NCBI RefSeq assembly: GCF_010747475.1
Contig: NZ_VSLZ01000001.1
Location: forward strand, 1,240,001-1,304,000
Source: Halorussus sp. MSC15.2
GTDB taxonomy: Archaea; Halobacteriota; Halobacteria; Halobacteriales; Haladaptataceae
Reading direction: 5' to 3'
DNA: 64,000 bases
The notes beneath the pieces are model-generated. The model did not search any database, was not told the DNA's origin, and saw only the letters and a program-made list of their open reading frames with translations. How positions within the stretch are numbered: position 1 is the first letter of the stretch; every line of letters starts with the position of its first letter. Shown here in pieces: positions 43,393-51,606 of this stretch. The translations under genes and the position numbers were made by a program.

Positions 43393-44870
43393 GTGACAAG
43401 ATGGCAAGAGAGGTGGTGGCACGTGCCACCTAGCACTGGGTTGGCGAACGCGGTCGTGACGGGACTAGTTACGGGCAGTATCGTCGCGCTCGGCGCTATC
43501 GGGTTGGCGCTGGTGTACAACATCGCGGAGGTCCCGAACTTCGCACACGGCGAACTCCTCATGCTCGGGGCGTACATGGCGCTGTTCGTCAACAAACCGG
43601 CGACGGTGCCGGTCTTCGAACTGCTGACGCAGGTGGACGCGCCCGCGAACTCACCGCGGTCGGATTCGCCGTCCTGTTCGTTCTCGCGGCCGGGTCGGCG
43701 CTCGCGTCCGTGTACTTACTCGGCGGAACGTCCGCGCTGAAGGGGTCGTGGTGGCCCGGCGACCCCAGTCCGGCGCTCGCGCTCGGCGTCCACGCGGTCG
43801 CGGCCGCGGCCCTCGGCGTCGTCGTGAGCCTCGGTTTCCCGTCCATCTGGGCCGGACTGTTGCTGTCGGCGCTGGTGCTGGCGTGGGTCGCTCCCTTCCT
43901 CGAGAAAGTCATCTTCCAGAAGTTCCGCGCGAAGGACGCCTCGCTCGCGACGATGCTCATCGTCACGCTGGGACTCTCGTTCGTGCTCCGGTTCGGCACG
44001 CAGGCGTTCTACGGCGGTGAAGTCCGGACCTACGTCGTCCCGCAGGTCGGCAGCGTGTTCGGCTACGACGTGGGCCTGTCGGCGGCGAAGTTCTTCGACC
44101 TGTACGTCACGGGAAGCGGTCTCACGATGCACGTCATCGACACCGGTCCGACTCCGGCCCAACCGATGTTCACCGCGGCCTACTCGTGGCTCGCGGTGGT
44201 CGCGCTCGTCGCGCTGACGCTCGGGGCCGCGTTCGCGGTCTACCGCTGGCGGAGCGGCGGGGACGAGGGGTACGGCACCGGCCACACCATTGGCCCGAAG
44301 ATTAGCGCGGCCGTCGCGGGTATCGCGACGTTCGTCGCGCTGCTGTTCCTGCTGGCCGGCGGCGGGTCGGTTCCCGAATCGTCGTCGTTCTCGACCAGAA
44401 TCCGCCTCTCGCTGATGCGAGCGTCGGTCATCTTCATCGCGGTCGGGATGATGGCGCTGCTCCACTTCCTGCTACAGGAGACCAAACTCGGCAAGGCGAT
44501 GCGGGCGTCCAGCGACAACATCGACCTCGCCAAGATTACCGGCATCAACACCGACCGCGTGATGATGGCGACGTGGATAATCGCCGGGGCGTTCGCGGCG
44601 GTCGGCGGCGTGATGCTCGGGGTCCTGTTCAGCCAGTTGACGGTCAACATGGGGTTCTTCCTCCTGCTCCCGATGTTCGCCGGGGTCATCCTCGGCGGGC
44701 TTCAGTCGGTGTACGGCGCGATTCTCGGGAGCTACATCGTCGGCCTGTCGATGGACGTCGGCATCTACGCGATTCCGGGTATCGGTTCGACCTACCGAAT
44801 CCCCATCGCGTTCGCCATCCTGTTCGTCGTCCTGCTGGTCAAACCCGAAGGAATCACGGGAGGCACCTAA
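43393..44870 (+). pseudogene. livH: LivH-type ABC permease, one-base frameshift
   Basis: Inner-membrane permease of a branched-chain amino acid/amide type ABC importer. The first frame covers LANAVVTGLVTGSIVALGAIGLALVYNIAEVPNFAHGELLMLGAYMALF and ends in nonsense after VDAPAN. The second frame resumes as ELTAVGFAVLFVLAAGSALASVYLL and runs to GGLQSVYGAILGSYIVGLSMDVGIYAIPGIGS. Adding one G at about 43647 joins them into 492 codons. A hydrophobic insert (residues ~240-330) is longer than in bacterial LivH. Start: GTG 43393 or GTG 43423, the latter closer to the usual N-terminus. livM follows two bases later. Confidence 0.87.
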
Positions 44871-44871
44871 C

Positions 44872-46821
44872 ATGGCACTGTCATCCAGCCTCGTCTCGCT
44901 CGGCATCATCGTGGGTATCTACGCGATACTCGCGCTCGGACTGAACATCAAGTTCGGCTACACGGGCCTGCTCGACATCGGGCACGTGGCGTTCTACCTG
45001 ACCGGCGCGTACGTCACTGCGCTGTTGGTCCTGCCGCCGCCCAGCACGCAGCAGTTCGCCACGTACGTGCTCGGGTGGAACTGGCCGTGGCTCCCGGCCA
45101 TCGCGGTCGGGACGCTCGCCGCCGGACTCCTCGGCATGCTGGTCGCGCTTCCGGCGATTCGGTTGCGGGAGGACTACCTCGCAATCGCGGTCCTCGGCAT
45201 CTCGGTCATCCTGAAGCGCATCGTCCAGTCGGAGGGCTGGCTCGCGAACGGTCCGGGTTCGCTCCGCGGATTCAGCCAACCGTTCCGCACGTACTTCCCG
45301 CTGCCCGGCGACACGCTCGGGGCCGCCGCACTCCTCGGGTTCGTCGTCCTCGTCCTCTGGACGGTCGCGACGTATCTCCTCGCGCAGGTCGGCACCGAGC
45401 GCGGGACCGACGTCGCGGCCGACGGTGGAGAGGCCGAGGGTTCGCAGGCCGCGTCGGACGCGCGCTCCGACGGTGGCGTGACCCGGGACCGCACCATCTC
45501 GGGCACCCCCGGTATCGGCGGATGGGTCGTTGACGGTCTGCTCGCGCTGACGATGCTCGGCGTCGGCTACGTCGCGGCCCGACGCTCGCGGACCCGGACG
45601 AGCGACTCCGAACAGCGACTCCTGCTCGGTGCCGGCGCGCTGTTCGGTCTGGCCGCAGGCGCTGTCGCGTGGCAAGCGTTCGAGTGGTGGACGGCCTTCG
45701 GCGTGAACCTCGACTTCGTCTTCGGTCTCGTCGTCTTCGCCGCCGTCACCGCGGGTTTCTACGGCGCGAACCGGCGGTACGCTCCGCTCGCCGGTGCCGT
45801 CACCGCCACGGCGGCCTTCGGAGTCGCGTTCCTCGTGGGCGACTCGCCGATGGTCGCGTTCGTCTTCCTCGCGGCGGCGTCGCTGTTCACGTGGGTGTTC
45901 GGTGCCGTCGCGGTCGTCCGCCGATACAGCGACCTCTCGGGCCGCGACTTCGGCGTCGCGCTCGGTCTCGCGGTCGTGTTCGTCGCGTGTTTCGCTCCGC
46001 TCATCGTCCTCGGCGGCGGGTCGGGCGACGCGATGAGCAGCGTCGGACTGTTCGTCACGATGGGACTGCTCGCCGCGTTCCTCTACGGCGTCTACTACCT
46101 CGGGTCGAACTGGGACCGATTCGGTTCCGGCGTCGAGTTCGTCCGTATCGTCGGTGTCGGCGCGATATGGCTGTTCGTCATCCGGTACTTCGTGATGGCC
46201 AACATCGTCCCGTTCCAGCGCGCCGGGGCGAGCGCGGTCGTGCAGAACAGCGTTCAGAACCTGCTCTGGCTGTTGAAGTTCCAGGGCGGGACCGCCGCGT
46301 TCGACTACACCCGGTTCCTGCTGGTACTCACGCTGGCGTCGCTGGCGATGCTGTACTACCTCTCGGAGATTACGGTCGAGTCGCCGTTCGGCCGGGTGCT
46401 GAAGTCCATCCGGGAGGACGAGGACGTGGCGACCTCGCTCGGGAAGAACACGTTCGCCTACAAGGTCCAGAGCATGATGCTCGGGTCGGCGCTCGCCGGG
46501 TTCGCCGGCGGACTGACCGCCATCTACTTCCAGAGTCTGGTTCACACGATGTTCGCGCCGCGGGTGACGTTCATCGCGTTCCTCGCGCTCATCATCGGAG
46601 GAACCGCCAACAACAAGGGGATGATTCTGGGCGCGACCATCTACTGGGCGTTCCAGAAGGCGACCGCCGACATCGCCGCGTTCTTCCCGACAGCGGCGCG
46701 CTCGTCGGTGCAGGCGCTTCGACTCGCGTTCATCGGCGCGCTCCTCATCGTCATCCTCTACTACCGCCCCGAAGGGCTGTGGGGCGAGAAACGAACCGTC
46801 GCGGAGGTGGCAGAAGAATGA
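44872..46821 (+). CDS. livM: LivM-type ABC permease with large membrane insertion
   Basis: Second permease of the importer, 649 residues against 300-450 usual. The N-terminal core (IVGIYAILALGLNIKFGYTGLLDIGHVAFYLTGAYVTALL; ALPAIRLREDYLAIAVLGISVILKRIV) and C-terminal core (SPFGRVLKSIREDEDVATSLGKN; GFAGGLTAIYFQSLV; AFLALIIGGTANNKGMILGATIYW) are canonical. Between them (about residues 165-440) lies an Asp/Gly/Ser-rich loop and about seven extra hydrophobic segments not found in ordinary LivM. It overlaps livG by 4 bases (ATGA). Confidence 0.9.
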   Translation: MALSSSLVSLGIIVGIYAILALGLNIKFGYTGLLDIGHVAFYLTGAYVTALLVLPPPSTQQFATYVLGWNWPWLPAIAVGTLAAGLLGMLVALPAIRLREDYLAIAVLGISVILKRIVQSEGWLANGPGSLRGFSQPFRTYFPLPGDTLGAAALLGFVVLVLWTVATYLLAQVGTERGTDVAADGGEAEGSQAASDARSDGGVTRDRTISGTPGIGGWVVDGLLALTMLGVGYVAARRSRTRTSDSEQRLLLGAGALFGLAAGAVAWQAFEWWTAFGVNLDFVFGLVVFAAVTAGFYGANRRYAPLAGAVTATAAFGVAFLVGDSPMVAFVFLAAASLFTWVFGAVAVVRRYSDLSGRDFGVALGLAVVFVACFAPLIVLGGGSGDAMSSVGLFVTMGLLAAFLYGVYYLGSNWDRFGSGVEFVRIVGVGAIWLFVIRYFVMANIVPFQRAGASAVVQNSVQNLLWLLKFQGGTAAFDYTRFLLVLTLASLAMLYYLSEITVESPFGRVLKSIREDEDVATSLGKNTFAYKVQSMMLGSALAGFAGGLTAIYFQSLVHTMFAPRVTFIAFLALIIGGTANNKGMILGATIYWAFQKATADIAAFFPTAARSSVQALRLAFIGALLIVILYYRPEGLWGEKRTVAEVAEE

Positions 46822-47822
46822 GCGAGACAGTCGAATCCGAACCCGAGACGCACGGAACTGGCGAAGCGATACTCGAAGTCGAAGGACTGCGAAAGACGTT
46901 CGGCGGCATCACCGCCGTGGACGGCGCGACCTTCGAAGTCGAGGAGGGCACCGTCACGGGTCTCATCGGTCCGAACGGTGCCGGGAAGACGACGACGTTC
47001 AACCTAATCAGCGGGTTCTACGAACCCGACAGCGGGGACATTCGGTATCGCGGCACCGACCTGCAGGACATCATGCGCCCGAGCGACACCGAGCAGGGTA
47101 TCTGGATGGGTGCCTCGGGGATGACGTTCGGCGGCGTCGGCCTCGCGGCCGCGGCGACCGCCGGCGTCTCCACGCTCGGTCTCGGCGGCGCTGCGCTCGT
47201 GGGCGCTGGCGTCGGTGCCGGTCTCTATCAGGCCGAGGAGAAGGTCAAGAACGACTACCTCGACGTGAAGAACAAGCGTCCGTTCCGCGTCTCCCAAGAA
47301 GGTCTCTCCCGGACGTTCCAGCTCACGCGCGAGCTACAGGGCCTGACCGTGCTGGAGAACCTGATGCTCGCGCCACAGGACCAGCGCGGCGAGAGCCTCA
47401 CCAACGCGTGGTTCCGGCGCGGTGCGGTCGCCGAGGAGGAAGCGGCGGTGCGCGAGCGCGCGGTGGAGATGCTGGAGTTCCTCGAAATCGACCACCTCAC
47501 CAACGAGTACGCGGGCAACCTCTCGGGCGGCCAGCGCAAACTGCTGGAACTCGGACGAGTGTTGATGACCGACCCAGACCTCATCCTGCTGGACGAACCC
47601 GTCGCCGGGGTCAACCCCGCGTTGACCGACAAGTTACTGGAGCGAATCGAGAGTCTCCGCGAGCAGGGCTACACGTTCTGCATCGTCGAACACGACATGG
47701 AGGTCATCATGAACCTCTCGGACACCATCATCGTCATGGACCAAGGTAAGAAACTCATGCAAGGCACGCCCGAAGAGGTACAGAACGACCAGCGAGTTGT
47801 GGACGCCTATCTGGGGGGATAA
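46818..47822 (+). CDS. livG: LivG-type ABC ATPase with a hydrophobic insert
   Basis: The 334-residue ATP-binding subunit has Walker A GPNGAGKT (residues 51-58), Q-loop RTFQ (165-168), signature LSGGQRKLLELGRVL, Walker B LILLDEP and the H-loop CIVEHDM. Typical LivG goes straight from the strand after Walker A to the Q-loop. Here roughly residues 90-155 are an added Gly/Ala-rich, hydrophobic stretch (GVGLAAAATAGVSTLGLGG, AALVGAGVGAGLYQAEE) before KNDYLDVKNKRPFRVSQ. It lies in the operon between livM and livF. The effect on assembly is unknown. Confidence 0.92.
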   Translation: MSETVESEPETHGTGEAILEVEGLRKTFGGITAVDGATFEVEEGTVTGLIGPNGAGKTTTFNLISGFYEPDSGDIRYRGTDLQDIMRPSDTEQGIWMGASGMTFGGVGLAAAATAGVSTLGLGGAALVGAGVGAGLYQAEEKVKNDYLDVKNKRPFRVSQEGLSRTFQLTRELQGLTVLENLMLAPQDQRGESLTNAWFRRGAVAEEEAAVRERAVEMLEFLEIDHLTNEYAGNLSGGQRKLLELGRVLMTDPDLILLDEPVAGVNPALTDKLLERIESLREQGYTFCIVEHDMEVIMNLSDTIIVMDQGKKLMQGTPEEVQNDQRVVDAYLGG

Positions 47823-47825
47823 CCG

Positions 47826-48575
47826 ATGGCACTACTCGAAGCCCGCGATATCGTGTCGGGGTACGGCGACGCCCAGATTCTCCACGGCGTCTCGATGGAC
47901 GTCGCGGACGACGAAATCGTCTGCATCATCGGACCGAACGGCGCCGGGAAGTCCACGTTCATGAAGGCCGTGTTCGGTCTCATCGACTGCTGGGAGGGGT
48001 CGGTCACGTTCGACGGCGCGGCCATCACCGACCTCCGGCCGGACGAGATTACTCGCGAGGGGATGTGCTACGTCCCGCAGGTGGACAACGTGTTCCCGAA
48101 TCTGACGGTGCGAGAGAACCTAGAGATGGGCGCGTACATCCTCGACGAACTGCCGGACGACGCCCTCGAAGAGGTGTTCGACCGGTTTCCGATTCTGGAG
48201 GAGCGACAGAACCAGAAGGCCGGAACCATGTCGGGCGGCCAGCAGCAGATGCTCGCCATGGGCCGCGGTCTGATGGTAGACCCGGACCTGATGCTGGTGG
48301 ACGAACCCTCGGCGGGTCTCGCGCCGGACTTAGTGGACGAGGTGTTCCGGAAGATAATCGAGATAAACGAGTCGGGCACGGCCATCCTGATGGTCGAGCA
48401 GAACGCGCGGAAGGCCCTGCGGAACTCCGACCGGGGCTACGTGCTGGAGATGGGCGAGAACCGCTTCGAGGACACGGGCGACGCCCTCCTCGACAACGAG
48501 GAAGTGACCGAACTCTACCTCGGGGCCGGTGGCGGCGACGCCGGCGATACCGGCGAGACGGCGACCGACGACTAA
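47826..48575 (+). CDS. livF: LivF-type ABC ATPase
   Basis: The second ATP-binding subunit, 249 residues and of ordinary length: Walker A IGPNGAGKSTF, YVPQVDNVFPNLTVRENLEMGAY, signature MSGGQQQMLAMGRGL, Walker B LMLVDEPSAGLAP and the H-loop MVEQNA. It starts four bases after the livG stop. With livH, livM and livG it forms a full importer; the binding proteins are encoded on the opposite strand just downstream. The C-terminal tail is Gly/Asp-rich. Confidence 0.95.
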   Translation: MALLEARDIVSGYGDAQILHGVSMDVADDEIVCIIGPNGAGKSTFMKAVFGLIDCWEGSVTFDGAAITDLRPDEITREGMCYVPQVDNVFPNLTVRENLEMGAYILDELPDDALEEVFDRFPILEERQNQKAGTMSGGQQQMLAMGRGLMVDPDLMLVDEPSAGLAPDLVDEVFRKIIEINESGTAILMVEQNARKALRNSDRGYVLEMGENRFEDTGDALLDNEEVTELYLGAGGGDAGDTGETATDD

Positions 48576-48854: not shown

Positions 48855-50156
48855 CTACGTCGTGGTCGTCGTGGACTGTCCGGAGTCGGAGAGTTTCCCT
48901 TCGAAGAACGACCGCGGAATCGTCTCCAGCACTTTGGTCGAACCGCTCTGGACTTGCATGATGGCGAACTGGTTGAGCGGTTCGAGTCGCTCGTTGAGGT
49001 TGACGGGACTCGACGCGCCCTGATAGTTGACGTCCGCGCCGTTGCCGAGCAGGTCCTTGGCCTTCTGGAACTCGTCGACCGTGACGACCTGCCCGCTGTC
49101 GCTTTCGGGCCGCGAGACCGACCGGATGTTCTTCGCGATGGCAGTTCCCGAGGCCTCGCCCGCGGCCTGAATCGCCAGCGCCTGCAGGAACAGGGCGTCG
49201 TAGGCGTGGGGCGCGAACAGCGTTCCCGCCTGTTCGCCCATCATCTCCTCGAACTTCGTGGCACCTTGGGTCTGCTCGGGGTTCGGCGATGCGAGGTACA
49301 TCCCGTCGGTGATGGATTTCAGACTGTTGAAGAACTCCTTGGAGTTCAGGCCCTCGCTCAGGACCCACTCGCCGCCGTAGCCGCCGTTCGACCACTGCTT
49401 GAGGATGGTACGACCGTTGCCGGGGTAGCCGACGAACCCGACGGCGTCAGGATTCCCGTTGAACACCTTGTCGAGCGTCGAAGTGTAGTCGCTCGACCGC
49501 TTGCTGTAGCCGACCATCGCGGTCGTCTCGCCGTTAAACTGTGCGCTGGCTTTCTCGGCAAGTCCCTGTCCGTAGGGGTTGTCGACGTAGAGGAACGCGG
49601 CCTTGTCCGCCCCGATGTACTTGTCCTCGTTCATGATGCGGCCCATCACGATGCCCTGCTGGCCGTCGTTGGGCGCGGTCCGGCCGAAGTACTTCACGCT
49701 CTTGTCCTGATTGTACCCTATCTGGGCCAATGCGGGCGACGTGCTGGCGTTGCTGACCTGCATCACTTGGTCGGCCGCGACGTTCTGCGCCAACGGGACC
49801 GACACCCCGCTGGAGGCCGCGCCCACGAAGCCGATGATGCCCGCCTCGTTGACCAGCGAGTTGTACTTCTGAATCGCCCGCGCGGGCTTGGTCTCGCTGT
49901 CGGCGTTGTTCATGTTGATTTGTCGTCCGAGCGGTCCGCCCGCGTCGTTGACGTTCTGGGCCGCGAGATTCGCCGCCTTCTGCATCCCGCTCCCGTAGGC
50001 GCTGAGCGCACCCGTGATGGGGAGAATCGACCCCATCTGGATAGCGCCGCCCTGTGTGGCACCTGCGGACGTTGACAGTCCGGTCAACCCGGCCACCCCC
50101 GCGGCCGTCGCGCCCTTCAGATACACCCGTCGCGTCGTTCGGTAGTTCTCTGACAT
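48855..50156 (-). CDS. ABC transporter substrate-binding protein (Leu/Ile/Val type), non-lipidated
   Basis: The 433-residue protein has a Tat signal (YRTTRRVYLKGATAAGVAGLTG) that ends STSAGATQGG without a lipobox Cys, so it is probably released or anchored otherwise. The mature part is a type-I periplasmic-binding fold: IQMGSILPITGALSAYGSGMQKAANLAAQ, GFVGAASSGVSVPLAQNVAADQVMQVSNASTSPAL, SSDYTSTLDKVFNGNPDAVGFVGYPG and APHAYDALFLQALAI. It is close to the neighbour at 50326-51606, a tandem paralog. The substrate is likely an amino acid or amide, not fixed. AATAAAC at 50184-50190 marks its TATA box. Confidence 0.9.
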   Translation of the reverse strand: MSENYRTTRRVYLKGATAAGVAGLTGLSTSAGATQGGAIQMGSILPITGALSAYGSGMQKAANLAAQNVNDAGGPLGRQINMNNADSETKPARAIQKYNSLVNEAGIIGFVGAASSGVSVPLAQNVAADQVMQVSNASTSPALAQIGYNQDKSVKYFGRTAPNDGQQGIVMGRIMNEDKYIGADKAAFLYVDNPYGQGLAEKASAQFNGETTAMVGYSKRSSDYTSTLDKVFNGNPDAVGFVGYPGNGRTILKQWSNGGYGGEWVLSEGLNSKEFFNSLKSITDGMYLASPNPEQTQGATKFEEMMGEQAGTLFAPHAYDALFLQALAIQAAGEASGTAIAKNIRSVSRPESDSGQVVTVDEFQKAKDLLGNGADVNYQGASSPVNLNERLEPLNQFAIMQVQSGSTKVLETIPRSFFEGKLSDSGQSTTTTT

Positions 50157-50325
50157 CTCCGACGTATCACACGACGCGGTACCAATAAACAATTGTGTAT
50201 GCTTACCACGGTCCGTCGGGATAGTTCAATCGAGTCCGGCCAACGACGAAGAAGAGCTGGAAACGGTTCCGTAATTCGATGCCAAAACGAAGTGAAAGAT
50301 GTCACCTCCGGTGGTGACGAGTACG

Positions 50326-51606
50326 CTACAGTTTGCCCTCGAACCACGACCGTTCGATGGTGTCGAGTTGCTTCCGCTTGCCCTGCTGAATCTGCATGAT
50401 GGCGAACTTGTTGAGCGGTTCGAGCGACTCGTTCATGTCCACGGGACTCGACGCGCCCTGATAGTTGATATCCTCCCCGTCGTCGATGAGGTCTTTCGCC
50501 TTCTGGAACTGTCCGGCGTACACTTTCGTCCCCTCTCGGGACATCGACCGGATGTTCTTGGCGATGGCCTTACCGGACGCCTTCCCGGCCTTGTGCATGG
50601 CCAGCGCCTGGAGGAACAGTCCGTCGTAGGCGTGGGCCGCGAACAGCGTCCCGGACTTGTCGCCCATTCCCTCGTTGAACGCCGTCGTACTCTTCTTCGA
50701 CGAATCTGGACTCGGCGACGCGAGATACATCCCGTCGGTGATGGACTTCAGACTGTTGAAGAACCCCTCGTCGTTCAGACCCTCGCTCAGGACCCACTCG
50801 CCGCCGTACCCGCCGTCGTCCCACTGCTTGAGGATGGTCTTCCCGTTGCCGGGGTAGCCGACGAACCCGATGGCGTCGGGGTCGTCCTCGAACAGTTTGT
50901 CGAGCGTCGAGGTGTAGTCGGAGGACTTCTTGTCGTACGGGACCACCGCGGTCGTCTCGCCGTCGAACGCCTCCTTCGCCTTCTTTGCCAATCCCTTGCC
51001 GTACGCGTTCGCGACGTGGAGGAACGCGGCCTTGTCCGCACCGATGTACTTGTCCTCGTTCATCGTACGGCCCATCACGAGACCCTGTTGGCCGTCGTTG
51101 GGCGCGGTCCGGCCGAAGTACTTGACCGTCTCGTCCTCGTTGTAGCCGATTTCGGCGAGCGCTGGCGTCGTGCTCGCGTGACTCACCTGCATCACGCCGT
51201 CGGCGGCGACGTTCTTGGCGAGGGGAACCGACACCCCGCTGGAGGCCGCGCCCACGAATCCGACGATGTTCTGCTCGTTGACCAGCGATTTGTACTTCTG
51301 CTGGGCCTTGCTCGGTTTGGTCTCGCTGTCCTTGTTGTGGACCTTCACCGTCCGACCGAGGGGGCCGCCCGCGTCGTTGACGTGTTCCTTCGCGAGGTTC
51401 ACTGCCTTCTGCATGCCGCCTCCGTAGGCGCTCAGCGAACCCGTAATCGGGAGAATCGAACCCATGTGAATGGGACCGGCACCGCCCTCGCCGCTACCGC
51501 CGCCGGAGATGCTGCCGATGCACCCCGAGAGACCGGTGACGCCTGCAGCACCGAGCGCTGCCGTCGTCTTCAGATACGCGCGCCGCGACTTTTCCGTGCC
51601 TGTCAT
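50326..51606 (-). CDS. ABC transporter substrate-binding lipoprotein (Leu/Ile/Val type)
   Basis: The 426-residue paralog of the preceding binding protein. The signal (KSRRAYLKTTAALGAAGVTGLSGC) has a twin-Arg and a lipobox Cys29, so it is a Tat lipoprotein. The mature part shares long identical stretches with its neighbour (MGSILPITGSLSAYGGGMQKA; GFVGAASSGVSVPLAKNVAAD; TILKQWDDGGYGGEWVLSEG). The differences in ligand-pocket regions suggest different or overlapping substrates. TATAAAAA at 51633-51640 lies 27-34 bases upstream, with a GGTCT-C-AGACC palindrome between it and the start. It probably serves the livHMGF importer. Confidence 0.92.
   Translation of the reverse strand: MTGTEKSRRAYLKTTAALGAAGVTGLSGCIGSISGGGSGEGGAGPIHMGSILPITGSLSAYGGGMQKAVNLAKEHVNDAGGPLGRTVKVHNKDSETKPSKAQQKYKSLVNEQNIVGFVGAASSGVSVPLAKNVAADGVMQVSHASTTPALAEIGYNEDETVKYFGRTAPNDGQQGLVMGRTMNEDKYIGADKAAFLHVANAYGKGLAKKAKEAFDGETTAVVPYDKKSSDYTSTLDKLFEDDPDAIGFVGYPGNGKTILKQWDDGGYGGEWVLSEGLNDEGFFNSLKSITDGMYLASPSPDSSKKSTTAFNEGMGDKSGTLFAAHAYDGLFLQALAMHKAGKASGKAIAKNIRSMSREGTKVYAGQFQKAKDLIDDGEDINYQGASSPVDMNESLEPLNKFAIMQIQQGKRKQLDTIERSWFEGKL

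Follow-up and report, generated by a model that had tools for sequence, protein, structure and literature searches.

An uncharged Gly/Ala-rich insert ahead of the Q-loop in a haloarchaeal LivG ATPase, a candidate membrane-anchoring hairpin

In the textbook account of ABC importers, the ATPase subunits are soluble proteins whose only attachment to the permease is through coupling helices. What, then, could be the role of a long uncharged, Gly/Ala-rich stretch that lies directly ahead of the Q-loop in one such ATPase, the LivG encoded in a window (i.e., the whole stretch of 64,000 nucleotides that was analysed) from a Halorussus-type haloarchaeon?

LivG and its insert

The livG gene (46818..47822, plus strand, 334 aa), delimited by its open reading frame, Pfam matches and alignment with MJ1267, encodes all the expected ATPase motifs, i.e., GPNGAGKTT (Walker A), RTFQ (Q-loop), NLSGGQRK (LSGGQ signature), LILLDEP (Walker B) and VEHD (His loop). 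ABC_tran is matched as two stretches (101.7 bits, cut-off 25) and residues 311-334 form a BCA_ABC_TP_C segment (36.6 bits, cut-off 25.5). The genomic context comprises LivH (frameshifted in the window), LivM and LivF in the operon and a Liv-type binding protein nearby, and on motifs, C-terminal segment and operon context the protein is a LivG-type ABC ATPase (PF00005 and PF12399). The NCBIfam LivG equivalog NF008449 is its top-scoring model, and as the 231 bits over two stretches fall below the curated cut-off of 362, the substrate is not assured; an amino acid or similar compound would be our guess. Where LivG departs from an uninterrupted canonical nucleotide-binding domain (NBD) is the spacing from Walker A to the Q-loop, which is 106 in the Halorussus carriers instead of 38.

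The best match in both sequence and fold is MJ1267 (1g6h, 1gaj, 1g9x), a branched-chain amino acid ABC ATPase that shares the NBD fold, the motifs and the C-terminal BCA_ABC_TP_C segment with LivG but runs from GxDI to the Q-loop without an insert, and that was crystallised as a soluble protein. The alignment of LivG with MJ1267 (1g6h) is interrupted at residues 82/148 with the MJ1267 residues all accounted for, and LivG therefore has ~65 extra residues, 83-147 (47064..47258, plus strand), without counterpart in MJ1267 and all insert-minus LivG. They are placed between the GTDL turn at the end of a strand and the short helix running into the Q-loop. The original prediction of a ~65-residue Gly/Ala-rich insert before the Q-loop is thus borne out by this alignment, by the uncharged run and by conservation; its location at ~90-155 was close to the true site, with bounds off by a few residues.

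In this LivG, 47 consecutive residues are uncharged; when the protein was shuffled 20000 times, the longest such run averaged 17 and never exceeded 45. Across 43 carrier sequences these runs measure 44-50 residues, and none of 122 other ABC ATPases (NBDs) from the fetched loci exceeds 33. Gly and Ala make up 52% of the stretch. To call it strongly hydrophobic, as had been done, is somewhat overstated, given that the Kyte-Doolittle peak over 19-residue windows is moderate (1.5 in this LivG, with peaks of ~1.4-1.8). The approximate insertion energy, from our own approximation of a published scale and its weighting, is ~+0.5 to +1 per hairpin helix, on par with the weakest permease helices. The length, absent charge and aromatic framing of the two segments suit a membrane span; their hydrophobicity is marginal. 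The core of the hairpin (~residues 94-139; 47097..47234, plus strand), defined from hydropathy, conservation, the uncharged run and AlphaFold2, is framed by Trp96 and Tyr137. AlphaFold2, with an alignment of 55 sequences, modelled the NBD well and predicted the insert to be a two-helix hairpin (helices 90-115 and 119-147), with modest confidence (pLDDT 53-62 over most of it) and with the membrane no part of the prediction. No Pfam domain was matched above cut-off on the insert, and the matches of an insert profile to PDB chains were confined to the Q-loop part.

Invariant residues R154-P155, followed by F/Y156, lead on to Gln168 of the Q-loop (47277..47321, plus strand), as seen from conservation and from the alignment with LptB. 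LptB (4p33, 6mjp and others), the ATPase of the LPS exporter, is of the same NBD type by fold and its equivalent pre-Q-loop residues line the coupling-helix groove; unlike LivG, it has no insert, serves an exporter and is a homodimeric ATPase. The pre-Q-loop sequence aligns gap-free among MJ1267, LivF and LptB, and residues 72/73 of LptB correspond to P155/F156 of LivG. When pBPA is placed in LptB, positions 72 and 73 yield crosslinks to LptF/LptG, and the cytoplasm-facing positions 64 and 77 give no crosslink (PMC5082905); L72, H73 and R77 are listed among the coupling-helix contacts in a crystal structure paper (PMC5548808). By homology, the C-terminal root of the hairpin would lie 4-5 residues before the equivalents of the crosslinking residues, at the coupling-helix groove, and the insert would adjoin this groove on the membrane-facing side, which agrees with the earlier proposal that it is placed where the ATPase contacts the permeases.

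Distribution, origin and conservation

The full insert is present in 14 of the 18 sampled genomes of the genus and, at the level of the class, in 36 of 391 haloarchaeal genomes, distributed over 17 of 86 genera. A scan of named genomes recovered 32 insert-bearing loci (L115-L146), and carriers include Halorussus, Halocatena, Natrinema, Halopenitus, Halopiger, Haloquadratum, Haloplanus, Haloarcula, Halobellus and Halorubrum persicum. The spacing from Walker A to the Q-loop is bimodal, i.e., 105-110 in the 32 named carrier loci versus 38 in 48 others (bacterial ones included). Two trivial origins were considered and rejected: a one-off insert is ruled out by its occurrence across congeners, class genomes and the named-genome scan, and a frameshift or assembly artefact by the frame and spacing conserved in the 32 named loci together with low dN/dS. 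Absence from other LivG and a frameshift artefact were also the outcomes that the original prediction had named as its refutation, and neither was observed. When the tree is computed with the insert left out, all of the 34 carriers fall in one clade (support 100/98), consistent with a single gain within haloarchaea. None was seen beyond haloarchaea in the phylum sample or the contig scan, the patterns of which were aimed at the Q-loop flank and could miss distant carriers. Insert-minus haloarchaeal LivFGHM systems (e.g., Halobellus, Halorubrum) share the operon order and gene families and have moderately long permeases (LivH ~370, LivM ~420-460), but they show the spacing of 38, have no hairpin and branch outside the carrier clade. 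The genome that provided the window also encodes a LivG paralogue elsewhere without the insert (L105). A further LivG-like paralogue in this genome (L111:5991-6866, G000:C3) does carry an insert at the site of the hairpin, but one of ~37 residues that is hydrophilic and rich in Asp, Gly and Thr.

Across 25 carriers, M86, E92, G133 and Y137 are invariant, W96 is found in 24 and G105, G129 and G135 in 22-24, and small residues form GxxxG repeats at 101/105 and 129/133. The length is nearly fixed, at 67-72 residues above the canonical spacing. Three sequences have an Arg close to the tip of the core (~94-139), isolated charges occur at its ends, and the tip is polar or charged in the pair of chimeric operons described below; the core is otherwise uncharged. 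Halorussus LivG sequences give a dN/dS (ratio of means) of 0.166 for the insert and 0.127 for the rest, with dS high and partly saturated, and amino acids change about twice as fast in the insert as in the rest of the protein. These sequence comparisons indicate that the insert is under purifying selection.

Operon neighbours and permease length

Extra membrane segments in livH and livM had also been predicted, and they are real. The long-form livM (44872..46821, plus strand, 649 aa), annotated from Pfam and hydrophobic-segment analysis, has a BPD_transp_2 fold split by ~290-330 extra residues (from ~172) with ~8 hydrophobic segments, ahead of the helix leading to the coupling helix; by topology, this addition may lie in an extracellular loop. 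Its AlphaFold2 model is weak in the extra region (mean pLDDT 69.8), a fold search with LivM gave no match at E<=0.001 and a sequence search against the PDB gave none. The LivM proteins of other genera are ~60-90 residues shorter. LivH carries two additions of extra hydrophobic segments. In the window, the long-form livH (43393..44870, plus strand), recognised from its open reading frames and alignment with relatives, is frameshifted near 43640 (ORFs 43393-43740 and 43710-44870), where it differs from Halorussus aquaticus by a single base in length; in relatives the gene is one intact ORF of ~470-492 aa (492 aa in Halorussus aquaticus), and the frameshift may be either a sequencing error or real. 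Downstream of livG, livF (47826..48575, plus strand; ORF, Pfam, NCBIfam) encodes the second ABC ATPase, which is without the insert, and since only LivG has the hairpin, one hairpin per complex is expected. A Liv-type substrate-binding protein gene (48855..50192, minus strand; ORF, Pfam, NCBIfam) is convergent with the operon. A second, adjacent one (50326-51606, minus strand), ~70% identical to it and also convergent, completes a tandem pair that recurs in relatives (e.g., L075, L077).

Long LivM (547-673 aa in 30 named loci) and long LivH accompany the insert in 30 of the 31 named loci with a measurable LivM (L144 is cut by a contig end), the exception being Halorubrum persicum (L131), and LivM beside insert-minus LivG does not exceed 486 aa in 48 loci. 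Owing to the carriers being one clade, this co-occurrence amounts to approximately one event. In two chimeric operons, those of Halorubrum persicum (L131:2459-7601) and of genome G229 (L098:2782-7729), insert-bearing LivG and LivF (the latter ~71% identical to the window group) are combined with a compact LivH (298 aa) and LivM (321-322 aa) that are nearest to Nitrospirota-type permeases (~43-46% identical). No long LivM was found elsewhere in the one-contig genome G229. Given that the insert is kept with compact LivH and LivM, and in G229 without any long LivM, it is independent of the extra permease helices. Faster divergence of the insert beside compact permeases was looked for and not seen: in the chimeric pair it has diverged no more than NBD divergence predicts. 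Between the two chimeric LivG, dN/dS is 0.18 for the insert and 0.04 for the rest, values that leave room for some relaxation of the insert in this pair.

Candidate roles of the hairpin

With moderate confidence, we consider the best reading to be a Gly-zipper hairpin that would anchor LivG to the membrane and to the permease face. A normal Liv-type ABC ATPase would have gained, once in haloarchaea, a Gly-zipper helical hairpin of ~65-70 residues, inserted between the GTDL-ending strand and the short helix to the Q-loop and with both ends in the cytosol. Its two uncharged helices of ~20 residues would pack via their GxxxG faces and would most likely enter the membrane beside the permease, where Trp96 and Tyr137 would mark the cytosolic interface. 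An otherwise peripheral ATPase would thereby acquire a membrane anchor of its own, together with one more contact next to the coupling-helix groove. We regard membrane insertion of the hairpin as likely and its contact with LivH or LivM as putative. An anchor that functions without extra permease helices would be kept beside compact permeases, as the hairpin is. Marginal hydrophobicity, the pLDDT of 53-62 and the tolerance of a hydrophilic insert at the same site in a paralogue argue against a membrane anchor. A stronger version, to which we subscribe only tentatively, would make LivG itself an integral membrane protein, its transmembrane Gly-zipper hairpin beside the Q-loop being a second ATPase-membrane link, restricted to a single ATPase of the pair and transferable from one permease type to another.

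The main rival, unlikely in our view, is that the Gly/Ala-rich two-helix element stays cytosolic and out of the lipid, where it would pack against LivF, the NBD or the cytosolic face of the permease and adjust coupling or high-salt stability. The marginal insertion energy of the small-residue helices, the modest AlphaFold2 confidence and the restriction to one of two ATPases would all suit it, as would the fact that Gly/Ala helices of low charge can lie buried at protein-protein contacts; however, a solvent-exposed uncharged stretch of 44-50 residues would be unusual for an acidic halophile proteome, and two equal helices of ~20 residues framed by Trp and Tyr better match a membrane span. Still less probable is the co-evolved interface put forward in the original prediction, with the LivG hairpin docking on the extra helices of LivH and LivM. 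The association on which it was based holds, as both long permeases stand beside the insert in nearly all operons and LivM is short next to insert-minus LivG, but a single clade with one shared origin, the two genomes that keep the insert with compact, unrelated permeases (one, in a single contig, without a long LivM) and the unremarkable divergence of the insert in these chimeras have weakened it, and a three-insertion interface of LivG, LivH and LivM is not established. That the insert is merely neutral filler in a permissive surface loop, with no particular function, appears very improbable: the hydrophilic Asp/Gly-rich insert at the same place in the paralogue (L111) and the roughly twofold faster amino-acid evolution point that way, but invariant and near-invariant residues, near-fixed length and a fixed uncharged pattern with a dN/dS of 0.17 across many genera argue against it.

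If the anchoring hairpin is confirmed, it would constitute a second mechanical or anchoring link, formed by a conserved hydrophobic element that lies directly ahead of the Q-loop in only one member of the asymmetric ATPase pair. We found no earlier description of a LivG hairpin in the literature searched, with most subscription journals outside its scope. The natural chimera with compact permeases separates the hairpin from the extra permease helices. In the chimeric Liv operons, the binding-protein gene lies upstream and runs in the same direction.
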